A DNA stretch of 56,890 bases from Candidatus Poribacteria bacterium (lineage in GTDB: Bacteria; Poribacteria; WGA-4E; WGA-3G), in assembly GCA_021295715.1 (NCBI GenBank), contig JAGWBV010000009.1, positions 1-56,890 of the forward strand. The letters run 5' to 3'. Under the pieces are notes generated by a model. It worked only from the letters and a program-made list of their open reading frames with translations, ran no database searches and was not told the origin of the DNA. Of this stretch, positions 4,380-13,310 are shown one piece after another; position 1 is the stretch's first letter; each line of letters begins with the position of its first letter. The translations under genes and the position numbers were made by a program.

Positions 4380-6305
4380 CTATCTATAAAATGAATACAT
4401 CGGCATTCCTGTAACAAGTCGAATCAGGACCCATACGCCACCCACCATGAATTCGCCGAGTATTAGTCCTAAAAAGAGTGGATACGCTTTGCGATAGAGA
4501 CGAATCCCACCCACTTTCAGCAAGATTGTTTTGACACCCCAACTGATGAGTATCGAAAACCACAGCCGACCGATCGTTGATTTTTCACCAGCGACCATAT
4601 ACCCAGCAGGATGGAAGGGCCAGAACGGAAACAGCGTTCGCAGCCACCAAAAAAAACCAGTGAAGAGTGCACCGATACCAATAAAAATCACGGCAGGAAC
4701 ATCGGTGTCAACTGGGTGGTAGATCCAACTCTGCAAAAGGTTATAACCACCTGTGCCGAGATCACTCACAACACCGATGTTGTACCCGACCACAAGATAC
4801 GCCCAAAACGATGCCAGAATCCCGATCACAGCGGCGAACATCATCGCTACGATGAGTCTGCCGGAACGCATGCCTGTTTCCTCTGCGAGTTTGAAGCCTT
4901 CAAGTGTATGTGGCATCGGATGGGCGCGTGACCCACGGTTGAAGGTTAGATAGAGACGCATCATCGTTAAACTACCGTGCGAAATCAATCGGGTCCCAAA
5001 AATATCTGTGAGGATATCGTGAGGTGTTGCATACGTCCGTATCGTCGGGGGTCCGACTTCAGCACGGATACGCGTCAGACTCATCGCTAACAGGTAATAG
5101 ATTAAGAAGTAGAGTCCGATTGTCCAGAATGCCATTCCACCTTGTCGTGAAAAAGCGAATAGGAAAAACAAACCGCAGACTAACCCAATTGCCGCCCAGC
5201 GATAGCGTATCGGTTCTCTACTGTCGTCGATGTCGCCGGGTGAATTACGCCACCGAAAGATATACTTGAGAATCCTAAGAAAGTAGCGTCGTCCGCCCCA
5301 AATTGCGAGACATGCAAGCACAAGATACCCTCCCATCACCTGTTGCCAGTCATAAGGAAATCCCGGCATTACGTCAAGACCGAGCGCGCTGCCGAGTATC
5401 CGTTGTGCTTTCCAGAACCAGTAAAAAAACCAAATTGAAAATGACATTTCCAATGGCATCAGATACGCGAGTCCAACAGCAAACGAACGGACATAAACCG
5501 GGGTCCATCCCATTGAACTCCACGGTTTCTGTGTGAAGAATTGACCCAGTTCAGCGTGCCGCACCGGGATTTCAGGAATTTCAGGGAAAAGCACATGAAG
5601 ACCATTGATAAGGTTGATACCGCCTGCAATCGAAAACCCAAGCCACATCATCGGTGATCGGAAAAGCCGTCCGTCAAGCCTTGTCATTTCTAATGGCAAT
5701 TGCACGATGGGATACGTCAACCGTTCATGCTCAATCCACTGTTTTCGGAGAAAAACGTCCAAGCAGATCATCACCCAGATCAGGACGGTCAGAAAGAGAG
5801 TCCACCAGAGAATCGGACGCAGCCATCCCCGCAGATGCACCATTCTGTAAATAGTACTCTCTCCGTCGTAGAACGCTTGCAGGCTTGCCATATCATTAGA
5901 TGTGAGCCACGCAGGAAGATACCGCCAAAACAGTTGTTTCCACTCATTTTCAGGGGTTGCAAACCAGAACGCATCGGATATCGTTGGGATAACGGTTTGC
6001 ATCATATCGTGTCCTGCAATCGCTGAGGAGAGCGACAGCATCACAAAGACCGTTAAAAGTTCACCCTGTCTCAAAGCAAACCGTGGTAGAAACCGATTCA
6101 GCAAAAGATTGAACGGGATGAGCACCATCAACGTGATAATCACGTTATAGATGAGGGACATCGTCGTTGGGAGGGTGCTCCAGAATTTGAGGTGGTTTGC
6201 CATGATGAAGTAGGTATTCACTGGAATCAGTAGCAAACCGAGTATGATGGCGCGAACCGTTACGCCCGGATGGGAATTTTGATTTTTTTGTGTTGCGTTT
6301 GCCAT
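4380..6305 (-). CDS. DUF6785/DUF6784-type polytopic membrane protein
   Basis: The 641-residue product has about a dozen or more hydrophobic membrane segments, starting at residues 17-37 and 50-75. A conserved-looking ERLTYPIVQLPLEM motif lies near residues 192-205, and GGRRYFLRILKYIFRWRN forms a basic cytoplasmic loop. I recall this architecture as the DUF6785/DUF6784 family, common in Poribacteria and Planctomycetes and distantly similar to oligopeptide (OPT) transporters. A transport role is inference. No ABC subunit or binding protein lies next to it, so it would act alone. Confidence 0.75.
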   Translation of the reverse strand: MANATQKNQNSHPGVTVRAIILGLLLIPVNTYFIMANHLKFWSTLPTTMSLIYNVIITLMVLIPFNLLLNRFLPRFALRQGELLTVFVMLSLSSAIAGHDMMQTVIPTISDAFWFATPENEWKQLFWRYLPAWLTSNDMASLQAFYDGESTIYRMVHLRGWLRPILWWTLFLTVLIWVMICLDVFLRKQWIEHERLTYPIVQLPLEMTRLDGRLFRSPMMWLGFSIAGGINLINGLHVLFPEIPEIPVRHAELGQFFTQKPWSSMGWTPVYVRSFAVGLAYLMPLEMSFSIWFFYWFWKAQRILGSALGLDVMPGFPYDWQQVMGGYLVLACLAIWGGRRYFLRILKYIFRWRNSPGDIDDSREPIRYRWAAIGLVCGLFFLFAFSRQGGMAFWTIGLYFLIYYLLAMSLTRIRAEVGPPTIRTYATPHDILTDIFGTRLISHGSLTMMRLYLTFNRGSRAHPMPHTLEGFKLAEETGMRSGRLIVAMMFAAVIGILASFWAYLVVGYNIGVVSDLGTGGYNLLQSWIYHPVDTDVPAVIFIGIGALFTGFFWWLRTLFPFWPFHPAGYMVAGEKSTIGRLWFSILISWGVKTILLKVGGIRLYRKAYPLFLGLILGEFMVGGVWVLIRLVTGMPMYSFYR

Positions 6306-6367: not shown

Positions 6368-8143
6368 CTATTTTACATCTCCCTCTTTTTTCAGTTTCCT
6401 TCTGGCACGCCAATACGCAAACTGTCGGAGATAGTAACCAGTATTCTTGCGGATTTTCTCAAACTCTGGCACGAACGGACACGTCCCGCCGAGTACGACT
6501 AATTCCACCTTGGCACGCGTCATCGCAACATAGAAGACACGACGCTCTTCTGCAAGGTTGTTATCACGACGCGGGAAACGACGCTCCAATGTGTTATGGA
6601 CGAGAATAACCTTTTCCCATTCCCTACCTTTGGCTTTATGGATCGTCGTCACTTCAACAGGATCCGCGTGCTTGGAAAGCATTTGTTGAATCTGGTCGGT
6701 TTCGTAGTTGGTGCGCGCCAAAACAGCGGTTTCTTGAGATGATTTCAATTCACGGCGTAGGATGATTTCTACAGTCTCAGGGGTTGTCTCTACAATTTTT
6801 ATTTCCTGCTGTAGCGGATTATGGGCACGAAGGTTTTTGCTGATTCGAGGCTCGTTACGCTCAATCAAGGCTCTTGCGTGTTCAACGATGGTTGACGTGG
6901 AGCGATAGTTCCGCGTAATTTCATATTTTACCACATCCTGACGAGCGGTAAATTCCTGCATAATTTCGGAATCGCCACCACGAAATCCGTAAATCGCTTG
7001 GTCGTCGTCGCCGACAGCAAAAAGGTTCTCCGATAAGAGTGAAATCAGTCGGAAATCGGCGGGTGCGATGTCTTGGAATTCGTCAACGAGAAGATATGGG
7101 TATTTATCACGGTAGGTTTGGCGAAGATCCGGACCCGTTTCAAGTAGGTTTGCGGCATGGATAACCATATCCTCGAAATCAATAGCGTTTCCCTCGGTTT
7201 TGAGCGTCTCATATTTTACGGCAAATGCTTGTGCTACGGGGTCATCAAGCGTTGTTGGGTCAAACAAGCCTTCGGTAACGTGCCGTTTCGCTTGCATAAC
7301 GGTTTCTTTTATGTCGTTGAAGCGATCGCGCAGGTTCTCAAAGTCAGGATCTCTATCAAGATGTTCTTTGTATGGAATCTCGAAATGCTGGCAGAACATT
7401 TCGAGAATGAGTTGGTTGCTGTACTGCCCCCGCAACGGATCGGCGCGATTAAACACACCTTCACGGTTTCTATAGAACACAATCCAGTGTGCTTCGCGGC
7501 GATTTGCCTGTTGGCCCGGCAACGATTCAAGCACTTTAAAACTGAATTGTGACGCTCCTTCAGATCGGATCGCTTGTCGAAGTCTGTCGTTTGATGAGTG
7601 GTCAAAGTGTTCCTTCCGTCGTCGCTCTGGGTTTGTCGTTTGTCCGATATAGCATCTGCCGGTGCTTTTGCTCTCTATTTTATAGATGGCAACTGAGGTG
7701 GTGGAGGCTTCCCGTTCAATCTGCGTCTGTTCTTGTGCGATGATTTTATCTATCTGCCCCGTCCATACCTCAGGCTCATGATTAAATCCGGCGCGCTCAT
7801 AGTTTTCAGTGATAATGTCTTTACCGAAAGCGTGAAGTGTCCGAATTTTCGGCTTTATGTGTGTTTCGGTATTATCAGAGGATTGTGACGACGTGAGTTC
7901 TCGCTCTTCTGTCAAGCAAGATTTGGCTTGCAAGCTACGCCAAATACGCGTCTCCATTTCTTCAACTGCTTTTCTATTAAAGGCAATCGCGAGGATGTGT
8001 GGAGGTAGGATTTTGTGCGTCTGGATAAGGTTCAGGATCCGTGCTGTTACGACTGTCGTTTTACCGCTACCGGGTCCTGCGATGACGATAGCGGGATCTG
8101 TAATGTGGTTTACGGCTTTTTCTTGGTTTCTATCAAGTCTCAT
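6368..8143 (-). CDS. UvrD/Rep-type SF1 helicase with an inserted GIY-YIG nuclease domain
   Basis: The 591-residue protein has the SF1A helicase motifs in order: Walker A AGPGSGKTT (22-30), LAIAFNRKAVEEM (51-63), RTLHAFGK (101-108), Walker B LLVDEFQD, AVGDDDQAIYGFRGG, ITRNYRST, VTTIHKAKGREWEKV and RRVFYVAMTRAK. Between RTLHAFGK and Walker B lies an extra block at about 150-233 with every GIY-YIG hallmark: AIYKI (152-156), YIGQT (165-169), Arg174-176, His179, Glu217 in REAHWI and Asn232. GIY-YIG domains cut DNA with one metal ion. The insert falls in the 1B region, so the enzyme could unwind and nick DNA in one polypeptide. It is shorter than UvrD (about 720 residues) and has a reduced 2B region. 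It follows the HNH gene by 90 bases on the same strand. Confidence 0.88.
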   Translation of the reverse strand: MRLDRNQEKAVNHITDPAIVIAGPGSGKTTVVTARILNLIQTHKILPPHILAIAFNRKAVEEMETRIWRSLQAKSCLTEERELTSSQSSDNTETHIKPKIRTLHAFGKDIITENYERAGFNHEPEVWTGQIDKIIAQEQTQIEREASTTSVAIYKIESKSTGRCYIGQTTNPERRRKEHFDHSSNDRLRQAIRSEGASQFSFKVLESLPGQQANRREAHWIVFYRNREGVFNRADPLRGQYSNQLILEMFCQHFEIPYKEHLDRDPDFENLRDRFNDIKETVMQAKRHVTEGLFDPTTLDDPVAQAFAVKYETLKTEGNAIDFEDMVIHAANLLETGPDLRQTYRDKYPYLLVDEFQDIAPADFRLISLLSENLFAVGDDDQAIYGFRGGDSEIMQEFTARQDVVKYEITRNYRSTSTIVEHARALIERNEPRISKNLRAHNPLQQEIKIVETTPETVEIILRRELKSSQETAVLARTNYETDQIQQMLSKHADPVEVTTIHKAKGREWEKVILVHNTLERRFPRRDNNLAEERRVFYVAMTRAKVELVVLGGTCPFVPEFEKIRKNTGYYLRQFAYWRARRKLKKEGDVK

Positions 8144-8233
8144 ATTTTCGGACAGTTTAAGTGAAAAATCTCCGAAGGTATCGGAAGTATTTCAAGAATC
8201 AACACTCATCGGATGACTGTTTTTCTGAGGTTT

Positions 8234-8641
8234 TTATAACACTTCGAGTTTTACCAAATTCCGACGCGCTCGAATCGGTTGTTTAGCATTCATTAGGAGT
8301 ACTTCGACTGTTGTTCGCCCTATTGATGTTTGTCCTGCAATCTCTCCAGTCTCTCGATTTAAAAGAAAATGAACTGTCCAGCCATCAATCCGGGGGTTGA
8401 AAAGTCTAACATCCGTTCCTGTGAGTGGGTCAATCCCATTTTCGCGCGTAGCTTTGTGTGCATTACAGTGTGAACAGGCAAGTGCCAGATTGTTGAGTTC
8501 TGTCGGTCCGCCTGCCGATCTTGGCACAATATGCTTAACTTGAAAGGAGGAAGGGGAAAATTGTTCTGGATAGTGGCAGTACTCACACCGTTCATTTGCG
8601 CGGCTTGCCACAGACCTGCGCAACGGATTACCTATACGCAT
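8234..8641 (-). CDS. HNH endonuclease
   Basis: The 135-residue protein carries an HNH/McrA-type fold. Two CxxC pairs (CEYC at 18-21 and CSHC at 57-60) form the structural zinc site. The HNH residues lie in VKHIVPRSAGG, LNNLALAC and CNAHK. The first conserved position is KH rather than the more common DH. The tail with LFNPRIDGWTVHF is typical of a widespread small HNH family that is often paired with a ribbon-helix-helix or coiled-coil partner, as here, where the partner gene ends 14 bases upstream. The DNA target and the biological role (defence, mobile element or repair) cannot be read from sequence. Confidence 0.87.
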   Translation of the reverse strand: MRIGNPLRRSVASRANERCEYCHYPEQFSPSSFQVKHIVPRSAGGPTELNNLALACSHCNAHKATRENGIDPLTGTDVRLFNPRIDGWTVHFLLNRETGEIAGQTSIGRTTVEVLLMNAKQPIRARRNLVKLEVL

Positions 8642-8655
8642 ATATCACGCCTCGC

Positions 8656-9174
8656 TTATGATAAAAGCCGTCTCTCCAATGTTTCAAGGTTTTGGATTTG
8701 GAGTTCCTGCTCTTCAGCGAGGAGTGCTTCCATTTCTTTTTTCGCTTCCGATTCTAACACTGTTTCATTGTTGAATGCGAGAAGTTCTGCCAAACGTTCC
8801 TGTTTTTCAATAGCGAGAGACTTAAACCCAAAACTAACGTGTCCCTTCTTAATCATTCCAGCCACATCCATCTCTGTGCTTAAAACTTCGCCGGTATTAG
8901 CATCAACGAGTATCTCACCAACTTCGACAGGAGGCGCGACGTTGGTGAAAATGGGAACGACCCAAGTAGGCGGTGTTGATTGTTTAAGAATAGGTTCTCT
9001 TACCGTTAAGCATCTACCAGCGCGCTTTTGTAAAAAGGTTAGGGCAGCACCTCTTGCTTCGTCGCGCTTGAGTTGAAACAATACCAGTTCTTCAAGGGAG
9101 GTATCAGACACTTTAGCTTGCTGTGCCAATTTTTCATAGAGGTAATCTGGTAAGGAAATTGTAACCGGACGCAT
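8656..9174 (-). CDS. Ribbon-helix-helix N-terminus protein, partner of the HNH nuclease
   Basis: From ATG 9174 the 172-residue product begins MRPVTISLPDYLYEKLAQQA, a ribbon-helix-helix-like strand and helix. A middle beta-rich part contains EVGEILVDANTGEVLS. The end is a Glu-rich coiled coil (about residues 115-172). I preferred 9174 to an in-frame ATG at 9279 because GGAG lies 8 bases before it and the protein-like sequence starts there. The gene directly precedes the HNH nuclease. It may be an antitoxin- or regulator-like partner, which is inference. A 13-base inverted repeat lies upstream and could be its operator. Confidence 0.75.
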   Translation of the reverse strand: MRPVTISLPDYLYEKLAQQAKVSDTSLEELVLFQLKRDEARGAALTFLQKRAGRCLTVREPILKQSTPPTWVVPIFTNVAPPVEVGEILVDANTGEVLSTEMDVAGMIKKGHVSFGFKSLAIEKQERLAELLAFNNETVLESEAKKEMEALLAEEQELQIQNLETLERRLLS

Positions 9175-9217
9175 GTTGAATTCTCCAGTAATCGTTCTGA
9201 GTCTGCCCATTCTTACA

Positions 9218-9313
9218 TAAAGTTTACCATATCTGTGACGAATTTTCAACCAACGTTCAACAGGAGTTGCTTCTACCAAGAGGTTTTTCTTATTCCATTT
9301 ATGGTAAACTTTA
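9218..9313. repeat. 13-base inverted repeat plus third half-site upstream of the RHH-HNH-helicase cluster
   Basis: TAAAGTTTACCAT at 9218-9230 is repeated exactly in inverse orientation at 9301-9313. An 11-base direct copy GTTTACCATAT also occurs at 9222-9232 and 9360-9370. The sites lie between the RHH gene start and the next gene, where an RHH autorepressor would bind. The regulatory role is inference. Confidence 0.55.
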
Positions 9314-9371: not shown

Positions 9372-9806
9372 CTACTTCGGCATGCGCCGCACCCATAACA
9401 GCAGTGCTACATTCATTGCACCGATAAAGCCGAAAACATAGGATTGGATGCCTACCAACGTCTCAAGCGAGCGGATGAGGAAGGGACAAAGAATGGGTAA
9501 ACCGAGTGCCAAACAGGTGTAAAAGGTCAGCAGTTTCGCACCTTTCGCTTCCCAGAAGGTTATCTGCCGTTTCAACACCTGTAGATACGATTGATCCCAC
9601 AGACGAGAGGTCCACTTCCCCTGCATGAAACCTAAACCGATCCCTAAACCGTAGCCGAAACTCGACCACCGTATGTCAATCCGGACATCCTGTGAAACGA
9701 CAAACGCCCAAAGCAGTTGTCCTAACACCGAAAGAATTATAAATGCCCAAAAGACAGGCAATTTCATATAGAATGGGAGTAGACGCCGATATAACTTATT
9801 TGGCAT
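9372..9806 (-). CDS. Hypothetical small membrane protein
   Basis: The 144-residue product has about four hydrophobic segments: residues 18-38, 50-62 (Gly-rich SFGYGLGIGLGF), 90-110 and 118-138. The termini and loops are basic and Trp-rich. I do not recognise the family. It starts with MPNKLYRRLLPFYMKLPVF and lies between the nuclease cluster and purQ on the same strand. The long hairpin-forming spacer upstream separates it from purQ. Confidence 0.6.
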   Translation of the reverse strand: MPNKLYRRLLPFYMKLPVFWAFIILSVLGQLLWAFVVSQDVRIDIRWSSFGYGLGIGLGFMQGKWTSRLWDQSYLQVLKRQITFWEAKGAKLLTFYTCLALGLPILCPFLIRSLETLVGIQSYVFGFIGAMNVALLLWVRRMPK

Positions 9807-9935: not shown

Positions 9936-10724
9936 CTACAGAAGATTCGATTTGACGTAATTAACCGCATTTTTGAAGATAACCAATCCGTCGCCTTCAT
10001 CGGAACGGATCTCCTGAGTTTTAGCAGGTTTCCGTGTCCAGCGGGGATGGTTCCATTTTGTTAGGAACCGTTCTGGATGGGGCATTAATCCGAAAATTTT
10101 GCCTGTTGCATCGCAGATTCCTGCAATATTGCTATCGGAACCGTTCGGATTGTCAGGGTATCTACTCTCGGCGTATCGAAACACGACCTGATTGTTCGCT
10201 TCCAATTCTGACAGCACATTCGCTGGTGCAGTAAATCTACCTTCAGCGTGCGCAACGGGGAGATAAACCCGCGCTTTGACTCCCTCTGTAAAGACACATG
10301 GGCTTTCTTGCGTTTCCAGATCCACCCACCGACACTCGAATTTCGCTGAGGTATTCATCGCTAATGTCGAGCGCTGCGCCATCTCTGAGGTATCGTTCCC
10401 GGGCAGTAAGCCTGTTCGCACAAGCACTTGAAACCCATTGCAGATGCCAATTATTAACTTACCATCTGCGACAAATTGATTCAGCGCGTTTGTGAGTTTG
10501 TGTTTCATCTCGACCGCCAATAGGATACCCGCCGCAATATCATCGCCGTAGGAGAATCCACCGGGGATCGCGAGAATTTGATAGTCGGCAAGGTTAACTC
10601 TACCTGATATGAGATTTTGGATATGCACCAATGCTGTCTCTGCACCTGCGAGTTGGAACGCCATATCCGTTTCGGCATCGCAGTTCGTGCCTGCTGTTCG
10701 TAAAATGAGTGCCTTTGGTTTCAT
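9936..10724 (-). CDS. purQ: Phosphoribosylformylglycinamidine synthase, glutaminase subunit
   Basis: The 262-residue class I glutamine amidotransferase supplies ammonia to PurL in step four of purine synthesis. The N-terminus reads PKALILRTAGTNCDAETDMAF. The oxyanion region PGGFSYGDD is at about 54-62, the nucleophile Cys95 lies in GICNGFQ, and the His-Glu pair is in GLMPHPERF near the C-terminus. It is somewhat longer than the 225-residue PurQ of Bacillus. It lies downstream of purL on the same strand, separated by a copy of the 5'-leader repeat. Confidence 0.93.
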   Translation of the reverse strand: MKPKALILRTAGTNCDAETDMAFQLAGAETALVHIQNLISGRVNLADYQILAIPGGFSYGDDIAAGILLAVEMKHKLTNALNQFVADGKLIIGICNGFQVLVRTGLLPGNDTSEMAQRSTLAMNTSAKFECRWVDLETQESPCVFTEGVKARVYLPVAHAEGRFTAPANVLSELEANNQVVFRYAESRYPDNPNGSDSNIAGICDATGKIFGLMPHPERFLTKWNHPRWTRKPAKTQEIRSDEGDGLVIFKNAVNYVKSNLL

Positions 10725-10832
10725 ATTTTTAACTTTCCTTGCGGTTCGGTCAGGTCAGTTGGAGGCTTCAAGCGTTTTTTCCGTATATCCGCACTCCACT
10801 TCGTTTCAGACTTGTTTTCTTGTAGGGGCATG
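10725..10832 (-). repeat. 5'-leader repeat family A upstream of purQ
   Basis: Read on the minus strand, this copy has the GAAGTGGAG segment, then a TACGGAAAAA segment, then GACCGAACCGCAAGGAAAG, ending at the purQ ATG. The AAGGA inside it is the apparent ribosome-binding site. Other copies lie at 14265, 15911, 49408 and 50517. Confidence 0.7.
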
Positions 10833-10903
10833 TTTCCAAATCCAGTTGCGACGTGACCAAAAACCTGCAAGGACAACGGACGCAGCAGCCCAGACGTACA
10901 TAA

Positions 10904-13282
10904 TTAAAAATCCTGCCAGGCAGATTTGAGATTCTCAATTGACGCTTCGACTATCGAGCGTCCATTCTTTCCTTTGATAACAAATTCGGATGTATCTGAA
11001 ACGGTGCCAAGACAGCCGATCGGTATTCCCGCCATGTGGTTTTCGTAGGCACGTTGGTGGTGCGGTTCAACCTCTACAAGAAAGCGGCTATTTGATTCTG
11101 AAAACAGGAGGAAATCGTCGGCATCAATTTCTTCACCTGTAGGTATGTCGTCAAGACTCAGAGACATTCCATAGCCACCTGCAAATGCCATTTCCGCCAC
11201 CGCTACACCGATACCGCCTTCAGAACAGTCATGGCACGAGCGCACCCATCCACTGTTGATAGCAGTACTGAGACGTTCCATCGTCAACTTCCCTTCACTT
11301 GGACGAATAGCAGGGGCAGTGTTTCCGACAAACCCGTGGATGTTGAAGTAGTGCGAACCGCCTAACTCAGCATAGGTATTGCCTACGACATAAATGAGAT
11401 TTCCCGGCGTTTTCACGTCCATTGTGACGGCGTGTTGAATGTCGGGCATAACGCAGATAGCGGATATAAGGAGTGTCGAAGGGATGGCGCGTTGTTCACC
11501 GGTCGTGGTATCTCTGTACTCATTGTAGAGACTGTCTTTACCGGAAATAAAGGGCGTGCCGTAAGCAGTTGCGATGTCATAACAGGCTCTCGCTGCACGG
11601 ACGAGTTCACCGAGCCGGTCAGGTTTGTCCGGATTCCCCCAACAGAAATTGTCCAATAACGCAGTCTTTTCTAACGTTCCCCCGACAGCGATGATATTCC
11701 GCAAAGCCTCGTCAATCGCTGCTGCTGCACTGAGATACGGATCTACGTCGCTATATTTCGGATTGATGCCGTTCGCAACGATGACACCGGTTCGACTACC
11801 TAAGACGGGAGTTGTGACGCATGCGTCGCTCGGTCCGTCGTTTTCCACACCGACAAGCGGATTGATAACCATACCGCCTTGGACACCGTGGTCGTATTGC
11901 CGGATAACGGATTCTTTGCTCGCGATGTTTGGACTTGCGAGAAGGCGTTCGAGGTCATTGGTATAATTTACCGTTTCTTCATCTCGCGATGCCATATCTG
12001 GGTGCTTCGGCGGCTCCCAAACCGCCTCTTTCACAGGCATCGGCAGTCCGTTGTGCAGAAACTCCATCTCCAAGTCGGCAACTATTGTGCTTTCATAGAA
12101 AACCTGTAATCTATGCGTATCTGTGAAGGTCCCGAGGACTGTGGCTTCAACGACTTCTGCCTCGCATATTTCCATGAGTTCATCTAAATTCTCAGGTGGC
12201 ACAGCGATGACCATGCGCTCCTGTGCTTCCGAGAGCCAGATTTCCCATGGTGCAAGCCCTTCATACTTCAGAGAGACACGTTCGAGGTGCACTTCTGCCC
12301 CTATATCTTCTCCCATCTCTCCCACAGCAGACGAGAACCCGCCAGCACCACAATCGGTGATGGAGCGGTAAAGATTTCGGTCCCGCGCCTGTAACAACGC
12401 ATCAACAATCTTTTTTTCCACAATCGGGTTGCCGATCTGGACCACACTACCAAGGCTTTCAGACGTATCGTCCAATTCCGCGGAGGAGAAGGTAGCACCG
12501 TGGATTCCATCGCGCCCTGTTTGTCCACCGATCGCAACTACCAGATCACCGGGTTCAACGGATTTCTCGCATCTGTTTCTCGGTATTAAACCGACATTTC
12601 CACAGAAGACGAGGGGATTTGCGGTATAACGGGCATCAAAAAGGATAGCACCGTTCGCCGTAGGGATACCCATCCGGTTGCCGTAATCGCGCACGCCAGC
12701 GACAACCCCTTTAAATACACGCTTCGGGTGAAGCGAGCCTTTTGGTAGTTCCGCATAGGGTGTATCCGGCATCCCGAAACAGAAGACATCCGTATTAAGA
12801 ATCGGCTTCGCACCAAGTCCTGTACCGAGCGAGTCACGAATTACGCCGCCTATTCCAGTCCCGGCACCCCCATACGGTTCGATCGCTGACGGATGATTGT
12901 GTGTTTCGACTTTGAAAACGAGGTTGAATTGCTCGTCGAATTCGATGATACCGGCGTTGTCTGAAAAGACAGAAACACACCACGGCTTTGCTATCTCCTC
13001 AGTCGCACGTTGGATGAAGGTTGGAAACAAACCCTCAATCTGCTCTGGGGCTTTGCCTTCTTCGGAATAGAGGATGGTGCTTTTGAACGTTTTATGAACG
13101 CAATGCTCAGACCACGTTTGGGCGATGGTCTCTATTTCTACATCGGTGGGATTGCGTCCGAGGGTTCCGAAGTGGGTTTGAATTGTTTGCATCTCGTTCA
13201 AACTCAAGGACAACGTCCCTTCTCGGCTAATACGCATCAACTCGGTGTCATCGGCAGTTAAAATCTCTATTTCTTTGACCAT
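10904..13282 (-). CDS. purL: Phosphoribosylformylglycinamidine synthase II, synthetase subunit
   Basis: The 792-residue protein from ATG 13282 is the small form of PurL, which converts FGAR to FGAM using ATP and ammonia from PurQ. Visible motifs include TWSEHCVHKTFKS, the FKVETHNHPSAIEPYGGAGTG block, GGQTGRDGIHGATFSS, SITDCGAGGFSSAVGEMGED and HDCSEGGIGVAVAEMA. I preferred the start MVKEIEIL over an in-frame ATG at 13309 because the 5'-leader element (AAGGTAAAATT) ends at this codon. Small PurL normally works with PurQ and PurS. PurQ is adjacent, but I see no purS in the window. Confidence 0.94.
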   Translation of the reverse strand: MVKEIEILTADDTELMRISREGTLSLSLNEMQTIQTHFGTLGRNPTDVEIETIAQTWSEHCVHKTFKSTILYSEEGKAPEQIEGLFPTFIQRATEEIAKPWCVSVFSDNAGIIEFDEQFNLVFKVETHNHPSAIEPYGGAGTGIGGVIRDSLGTGLGAKPILNTDVFCFGMPDTPYAELPKGSLHPKRVFKGVVAGVRDYGNRMGIPTANGAILFDARYTANPLVFCGNVGLIPRNRCEKSVEPGDLVVAIGGQTGRDGIHGATFSSAELDDTSESLGSVVQIGNPIVEKKIVDALLQARDRNLYRSITDCGAGGFSSAVGEMGEDIGAEVHLERVSLKYEGLAPWEIWLSEAQERMVIAVPPENLDELMEICEAEVVEATVLGTFTDTHRLQVFYESTIVADLEMEFLHNGLPMPVKEAVWEPPKHPDMASRDEETVNYTNDLERLLASPNIASKESVIRQYDHGVQGGMVINPLVGVENDGPSDACVTTPVLGSRTGVIVANGINPKYSDVDPYLSAAAAIDEALRNIIAVGGTLEKTALLDNFCWGNPDKPDRLGELVRAARACYDIATAYGTPFISGKDSLYNEYRDTTTGEQRAIPSTLLISAICVMPDIQHAVTMDVKTPGNLIYVVGNTYAELGGSHYFNIHGFVGNTAPAIRPSEGKLTMERLSTAINSGWVRSCHDCSEGGIGVAVAEMAFAGGYGMSLSLDDIPTGEEIDADDFLLFSESNSRFLVEVEPHHQRAYENHMAGIPIGCLGTVSDTSEFVIKGKNGRSIVEASIENLKSAWQDF

Positions 13283-13310
13283 ATTTAATTTTACCTTGCG
13301 GGAGAACAAC
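13283..13310 (-). repeat. Short 5'-leader repeat family A remnant upstream of purL
   Basis: On the minus strand CCCGCAAGGTAAAATTAAAT leads directly into the purL ATG. This matches the 3' end of the family A leader (CCGCAAGG-A/T-rich-ATG), without the GACCGAA part. Confidence 0.55.

Follow-up and report, generated by a model that had tools for sequence, protein, structure and literature searches.

A helicase gene with an internal nuclease domain and its neighbours

The stretch of DNA analysed here (hereafter the window, 56,890 nucleotides) belongs to a member of the Poribacteria, which are sponge-associated bacteria. At positions 6368–8143, on the reverse strand, it carries an open reading frame of 591 amino acids encoding an SF1A helicase of the UvrD/Rep type, which has a GIY-YIG nuclease domain inside its domain 1B (residues 149–235, positions 7439–7699) and is devoid of a 2B domain. 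The parts of this gene, and the membrane-protein, pur, HNH and DUF6785/DUF6784 genes that flank it in the window, likewise lie on the reverse strand. The position, strand, length and residue numbers given for this gene in the initial annotation were all correct.

Motifs I, Ia, Ib and II–VI of SF1A UvrD/Rep helicases are all intact in the protein. The Walker A motif GPGSGKT (residues 23–29, positions 8057–8077) was read from the sequence and is invariant in alignment A3. Motif Ib, RTLHAFG (residues 101–107, 7823–7843), is the final helicase motif ahead of the insert. Beyond the insert come the Walker B motif or motif II, DEFQD (residues 354–358, 7070–7084), motif III, VGDDDQAIYGFRG (377–389, 6977–7015), motif IV, ITRNYRSTS (409–417, 6893–6919), and motif VI, ERRVFYVAMTRAK (533–545, 6509–6547); these four, like motif Ib, were identified in the sequence and by alignment to PcrA. 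Motif V, VTTIHKAKGREW (498–509, 6617–6652), was located by the PcrA match, which passes directly from PcrA residue 378 to residue 555, so that this motif follows immediately upon the end of the first part of domain 2A.

Upstream of the helicase gene lie a putative membrane protein of 144 amino acids (9372–9806), purQ (9936–10724) and purL (10904–13309), the last two named from their ORF sequences and together forming a conserved syntenic anchor (9936–13309). A comparison of loci from different genomes showed the order purL, purQ, 144-residue membrane protein and helicase in 15 out of 19 cases. In the window, an HNH endonuclease gene (135 amino acids, 8234–8641) is placed 90 bp upstream of the helicase; its product has weak similarity to the HNH domains of IscB, PtuB and Cas9d, and it is adjoined by an ORF of 207 amino acids (8656–9279) with a weak CopG/RHH-like match. 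The HNH gene is adjacent to the helicase in just 3 of the 19 loci and was accordingly discarded as a functional partner. Directly downstream of the helicase, a membrane protein of the DUF6785/DUF6784 type (4380–6305) is encoded, an arrangement found in 6 of the 19 loci. No conserved repair gene was found adjoining the helicase at the loci compared, where the neighbours are purine synthesis genes, the membrane protein gene and transporter-like genes.

Fold and catalytic residues of the insert and absence of domain 2B

The helicase part was matched by the Pfam families UvrD-helicase (E-value 7.7e-59, residues 4–400) and UvrD_C (5.1e-24), and its best sequence matches among solved structures were Deinococcus UvrD, PcrA and Rep. 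Scores against the NCBIfam equivalog models for PcrA, Rep and UvrD fell far under the cut-offs, so the protein is classed as a helicase of UvrD type and not as UvrD, Rep or PcrA proper; other UvrD-type genes are also encoded in the genome of the window. To compare architectures, a profile of 17 orthologues was aligned to PcrA. The alignment was unbroken from residue 2 up to PcrA residue 116, resumed over PcrA 168–378 and then again from PcrA 555, where motifs V and VI are found. The break at 116 and resumption at 168 place the GIY-YIG insert inside domain 1B, which has about 120 residues more than that of PcrA, most of them contributed by the GIY-YIG domain. The 2B domain is wholly absent, about 177 residues of PcrA (379–554) having no counterpart, and the AlphaFold2 (AF2) model likewise contains no canonical 2B between motifs IV and V. 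This absence is an addition to the initial annotation, which omitted it.

The AF2 model of the full protein had a pLDDT of 81.6, with values mostly of 87–95 in the GIY-YIG block, and its top Foldseek matches were structures of UvrD, PcrA and Rep. In the model, a helix (residues 130–148) precedes the GIY-YIG fold (150–225), whose terminal segment containing the Asn extends to about residue 235; the rest of domain 1B (residues 236–317, positions 7193–7438) follows, with helices at 243–253, 271–287 and 302–317.

The GIY-YIG domain was recognised by Pfam (PF01541, E-value 6.7e-9, residues 152–225) above the curated cut-off, and by homing-endonuclease families of PHROGs with E-values down to 7.5e-14. 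Sequence alignment to the catalytic domain of I-TevI gave an E-value of 0.03 with every catalytic position aligned. The residues concerned are Tyr154, the first Tyr of the motif (7682–7684), Tyr165, the Tyr of YIG (7649–7651), Arg175 (7619–7621), His179 (7607–7609), the metal-binding Glu217 (7493–7495) and Asn232 (7448–7450), which align, respectively, with Tyr6, Tyr17, Arg27, His31, Glu75 and Asn90 of I-TevI, a numbering drawn in part from the mutant names of the structure entries. When the block was modelled alone (AF2, pLDDT 89), its top three PDB matches in Foldseek were all I-TevI, with TM-scores of 0.80–0.82 and an rmsd of 2.2 Å, UvrC and Slx1 ranking behind. The features that define the GIY-YIG superfamily (the GIY and YIG strands, the Arg, Glu and Asn residues and the I-TevI fold) are thus all present. 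Since the closest phage relatives of the domain are also homing endonucleases, the match to I-TevI in sequence and fold identifies it as of the homing-endonuclease type. A Pfam scan of the 591-residue protein found no NUMOD DNA-recognition module.

The initial annotation proposed a UvrD-type helicase whose domain 1B holds a GIY-YIG nuclease between motif Ib and Walker B. Sequence comparisons, profile matches, the predicted fold and the evolutionary evidence all support this proposal, the PcrA alignment agreeing on the placement, the I-TevI alignment on the six catalytic residues and the structure prediction (best TM-score 0.82) on the fold.

Conservation, inheritance and tandem paralogues

The helicase–GIY-YIG gene was found in 54 of 59 species-level genomes of the Poribacteria family to which the window belongs. 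At E ≤ 1e-40, no match came from the 26 genomes that represented nine further families of the phylum, where a profile of the composite domain gave only partial matches to a single half. Catalytic residues were assessed in an alignment of 60 rows, six of which are short pieces of paralogues. Tyr154, Tyr165, Gly167, Arg175 and His179 are invariant throughout the roughly 54 distinct orthologues, the four catalytic residues among them in all rows, and so are Glu217 and Asn232 apart from one gapped fragment (59 of 60 rows). Homologues with lost catalytic residues, which in the initial annotation were to count against the proposal, do not occur among these orthologues. Such invariance, together with the I-TevI fold, makes a chance match to GIY-YIG untenable.

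In the 60 most similar pairs, dN/dS had a median of 0.13 for the GIY-YIG domain and also for the rest of domain 1B, 0.115 for 2A and 0.07 for 1A, as compared to 0.49 for a variable linker (residues 73–95). The nuclease part is, therefore, under purifying selection and constrained as strongly as the accessory parts of the helicase. Pairwise distance matrices from 21 loci were correlated between GIY-YIG and helicase (r 0.87), GIY-YIG and purQ (0.91) and helicase and purQ (0.92), indicating that insert and helicase share one history, which is vertical. As regards the five genomes with no match, the neighbouring genes are kept and the helicase is gone entirely in two (G080, a single-contig genome, and G061), a contig end adjoins the expected helicase site in a third (G033), and the other two (G049 and G052) are incomplete drafts. 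No orthologue free of the insert was found; where the gene is lost, it is lost whole and never the insert alone. Combined, these results show that the helicase plus GIY-YIG architecture is real, old and selected. In G080, a remnant of the HNH gene persists (76% over 50 amino acids). Two loci of one genome (L015 and L016, contigs C125 and C49 of G045) scored equally for the helicase and are followed by the same genes, corresponding to a duplicated segment or a mixture of strains.

Tandem paralogues that retain most or all of the helicase motifs are present just downstream of the helicase in at least ten genomes, closed or near-closed ones included. Those of loci L010 and L013 contain one intact GIY-YIG domain each. 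Most others contain two consecutive copies, the first keeping most or all of the catalytic residues and the second having lost the equivalent of Arg27 and, often, the His as well. Judging from these sequences, the domain decays in the second copies of paralogues when it is not needed, the copy in the orthologues being undecayed. Several paralogues are fused to a GrpE domain, a separate GrpE being retained in the genomes tested, and some to four S1 domains (S1 matches of 4.4e-59 in L010 and 7.6e-53 in L023). Paralogues fused to GrpE, S1 or both, with frames of up to 1698 amino acids, were located at L010:7335–11033, L013:7348–9714, L020:8570–11704, L023:7530–11801, L130:2111–7204 (reverse strand) and L140:5038–8496. 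Between the helicase and the paralogue of L020, a gene (6776–8515) encodes an N6/N4 DNA methylase domain with an additional weak match to Mrr-type nucleases.

Proposed activity and role in the light of known enzymes

We consider it fairly probable that the protein is a resident chromosomal helicase–nuclease whose motor brings the GIY-YIG domain to junctions of single- and double-stranded DNA, where it nicks, with maintenance a likelier task than defence. GIY-YIG chemistry relies on a tyrosine-activated water and one Glu-bound metal. Because every orthologue examined keeps the cutting residues, a single-chain enzyme that unwinds and cuts is probable. The activity of the nuclease, its coupling to unwinding, the polarity of the motor, the substrate and the role are all predictions, and conserved catalytic residues do not imply by themselves either the choice of substrate or the coupling of cutting to translocation. 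A UvrD/Rep-type SF1A motor lacking 2B should move in the 3'→5' direction along single-stranded DNA. Its domain 1B carries an I-TevI-type GIY-YIG that is predicted to be catalytically competent and has no recognition modules of its own; the motor would supply DNA binding and positioning, the role played in I-TevI by the C-terminal part, and would deliver the nuclease to the junction, one strand being nicked there. Cutting at the unwinding fork, which the initial annotation considered possible, is likewise the reading preferred here, a position at the fork being suggested by the placement of the nuclease in domain 1B. In UvrD, domains 1A, 2A and 1B hold single-stranded DNA at the junction, and the GIG motif of 2B anchors the duplex (PMC5973834). 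Deletion of 2B boosts unwinding by Rep and UvrD, 2B being inhibitory (PMC4945038). Loss of 2B in the Poribacteria enzyme would thus remove an inhibitory domain and leave GIY-YIG as the accessory domain that would probably contact the duplex. The physiological role would be in genome maintenance, for instance the trimming of forks, flaps or recombination intermediates. Replacement of UvrC was ruled out: separate genes encode UvrC and a Cho-like GIY-YIG protein, so that the enzyme does not stand in for incision in nucleotide excision repair, and the UvrC family profile gave no model match in the 591-residue protein.

The main rival to this reading is a defence enzyme, a helicase–nuclease that would degrade or nick invading DNA following a logic like that of Gabija GajB, type I HsdR or AddAB/RecBCD. 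It is kept as such for lack of a conserved repair partner and because restriction-like genes are neighbours of the helicase at a few loci, namely the HNH gene, adjacent in the window and in two other loci, and the methylase gene of L020 with its weak Mrr-type match. Tandem duplication and fast-changing paralogues are, moreover, typical of conflict genes, and the best PADLOC matches were to GajB profiles (5.7e-64). However, these matches are limited to the generic helicase core, neither the HNH gene nor the methylase gene is a conserved neighbour, and the helicase gene is near-core, vertically inherited and fixed in place within the family, in contrast to the usual patchy distribution of defence genes. 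Membership of Gabija was discarded, since no GajA was matched in the three upstream genes scanned and the downstream gene is DUF6785. Defence is hence regarded as unlikely, and on account of the near-core, vertical pattern repair appears somewhat the likelier of the two.

The GIY-YIG domain could instead be a non-cutting DNA-binding element that anchors the duplex in place of 2B, the usual duplex anchor, which is absent. Second GIY-YIG copies of the paralogues have been kept despite loss of catalytic residues, which shows that the fold does serve a structural purpose in this family. Binding alone requires none of these residues, though, and in the single-GIY orthologues they are invariant over about 35% protein divergence, which makes this reading improbable. 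More doubtful still is a function in RNA or R-loop processing, with motor and nuclease acting on RNA or RNA:DNA hybrids: the four S1 RNA-binding domains of some tandem paralogues would fit it, but S1 is absent from the window protein, whose helicase is closest to UvrD/PcrA/Rep and whose GIY-YIG is closest to DNA homing endonucleases. Finally, the view that the insert has no function for the host protein, being a recent selfish homing-like insertion, an element akin to an intein or an artefact of assembly (the last two named in the initial annotation as counting against its proposal), was rejected: phage homing endonucleases are indeed the closest relatives of the domain and one HsdR has a GIY-YIG insertion of doubtful function (PMC1564403), but the insert occupies one site in 54 species-level genomes in a conserved frame and shared synteny, with conserved residues, purifying selection, losses of the whole gene only and a history common to helicase and purQ; neither recognition modules nor the mobile or intron context of a GIY-YIG homing endonuclease accompany it, and Pfam and NCBIfam searches of the 591-residue protein found no self-splicing Hint (intein) family. 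An old, domesticated origin from a homing-endonuclease-like insertion is likely.

Among known enzymes, UvrD, PcrA and Rep share motifs I–VI and are nearest in sequence and fold to the proposed helicase–nuclease but, unlike it, contain 2B and lack a nuclease. I-TevI and phage GIY-YIG homing endonucleases share the fold and all catalytic residues, whereas the Poribacteria domain has no NUMOD or zinc-finger part, resides inside a helicase, is inherited vertically and is not at an intron. AddAB, RecBCD and AdnAB also join a UvrD-type motor and a nuclease in one chain, yet they are multi-subunit enzymes with 2B present, and the nuclease they carry is a PD-(D/E)XK domain at the C-terminus. GajB of Gabija is likewise a short UvrD-like helicase, but its chain has no GIY-YIG and it partners a separate nuclease, GajA. 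To our knowledge, in bacterial helicase–nucleases the nuclease is located at a chain end or in a separate subunit; here it is found in the junction-side domain, with the inhibitory 2B gone. Two further cases are covered by a 2006 survey of the GIY-YIG superfamily. Tlr8p, from the Tlr elements of Tetrahymena, combines an SF1 helicase (about residues 800–1200) and an I-TevI-like GIY-YIG in one polypeptide, but the latter is C-terminal (amino acids 1240–1340) and the element eukaryotic and mobile (PMC1564403), whereas the helicase considered here is bacterial and of UvrD type, with its GIY-YIG inside 1B. HsdR MCA0838 of Methylococcus capsulatus has a GIY-YIG inserted in a motor–nuclease polypeptide, where it is unique, was judged recent and perhaps irrelevant and is lacking in an 80% identical homologue (PMC1564403), whereas the Poribacteria insert is conserved throughout the family. 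A search of the openly licensed literature found no paper describing a GIY-YIG domain in 1B of a helicase of UvrD type, in agreement with the initial annotation, which knew of no characterised enzyme of this design.

Should it prove active, the enzyme would amount to a compact nickase guided by its own motor. It would also clearly exemplify the domestication of a selfish homing-nuclease domain, which would have become part of a near-core enzyme of the chromosome. A bolder proposal, towards which we lean slightly less than away from it, is that it represents a new single-chain class in which a homing-derived GIY-YIG fixed in 1B replaces 2B as the duplex-facing module, mechanically coupling unwinding and nicking at one and the same junction, and which has diversified by tandem GIY-YIG duplication (one copy active, one dead) and by fusion to GrpE and S1.

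The design was also sought elsewhere. No composite domain turned up among some 1,250 genomes sampled from four groups, a survey without a positive control inside those phyla, which were those of L042 (Stenotrophomonas, 398 genomes), L031 (Paludibacteraceae, 345), L052 (an actinobacterium, 256) and L036 (labelled Bacilli, 255); inspection of partial matches showed a canonical PcrA and, separately, a GIY-YIG protein without helicase. Two scans of IMG/VR revealed no relative of the composite, and phrog_1967 and phage helicases were discarded as carriers, the two phage helicases inspected having no GIY-YIG. A contig search by short exact peptide patterns retrieved 18 Poribacteria loci and UvrD-type homologues from other organisms. 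Haloarchaeal helicases gave tblastn alignments through the insert region, and one of them, which has a PD-(D/E)XK nuclease gene as neighbour, might at a guess be AddAB-like.
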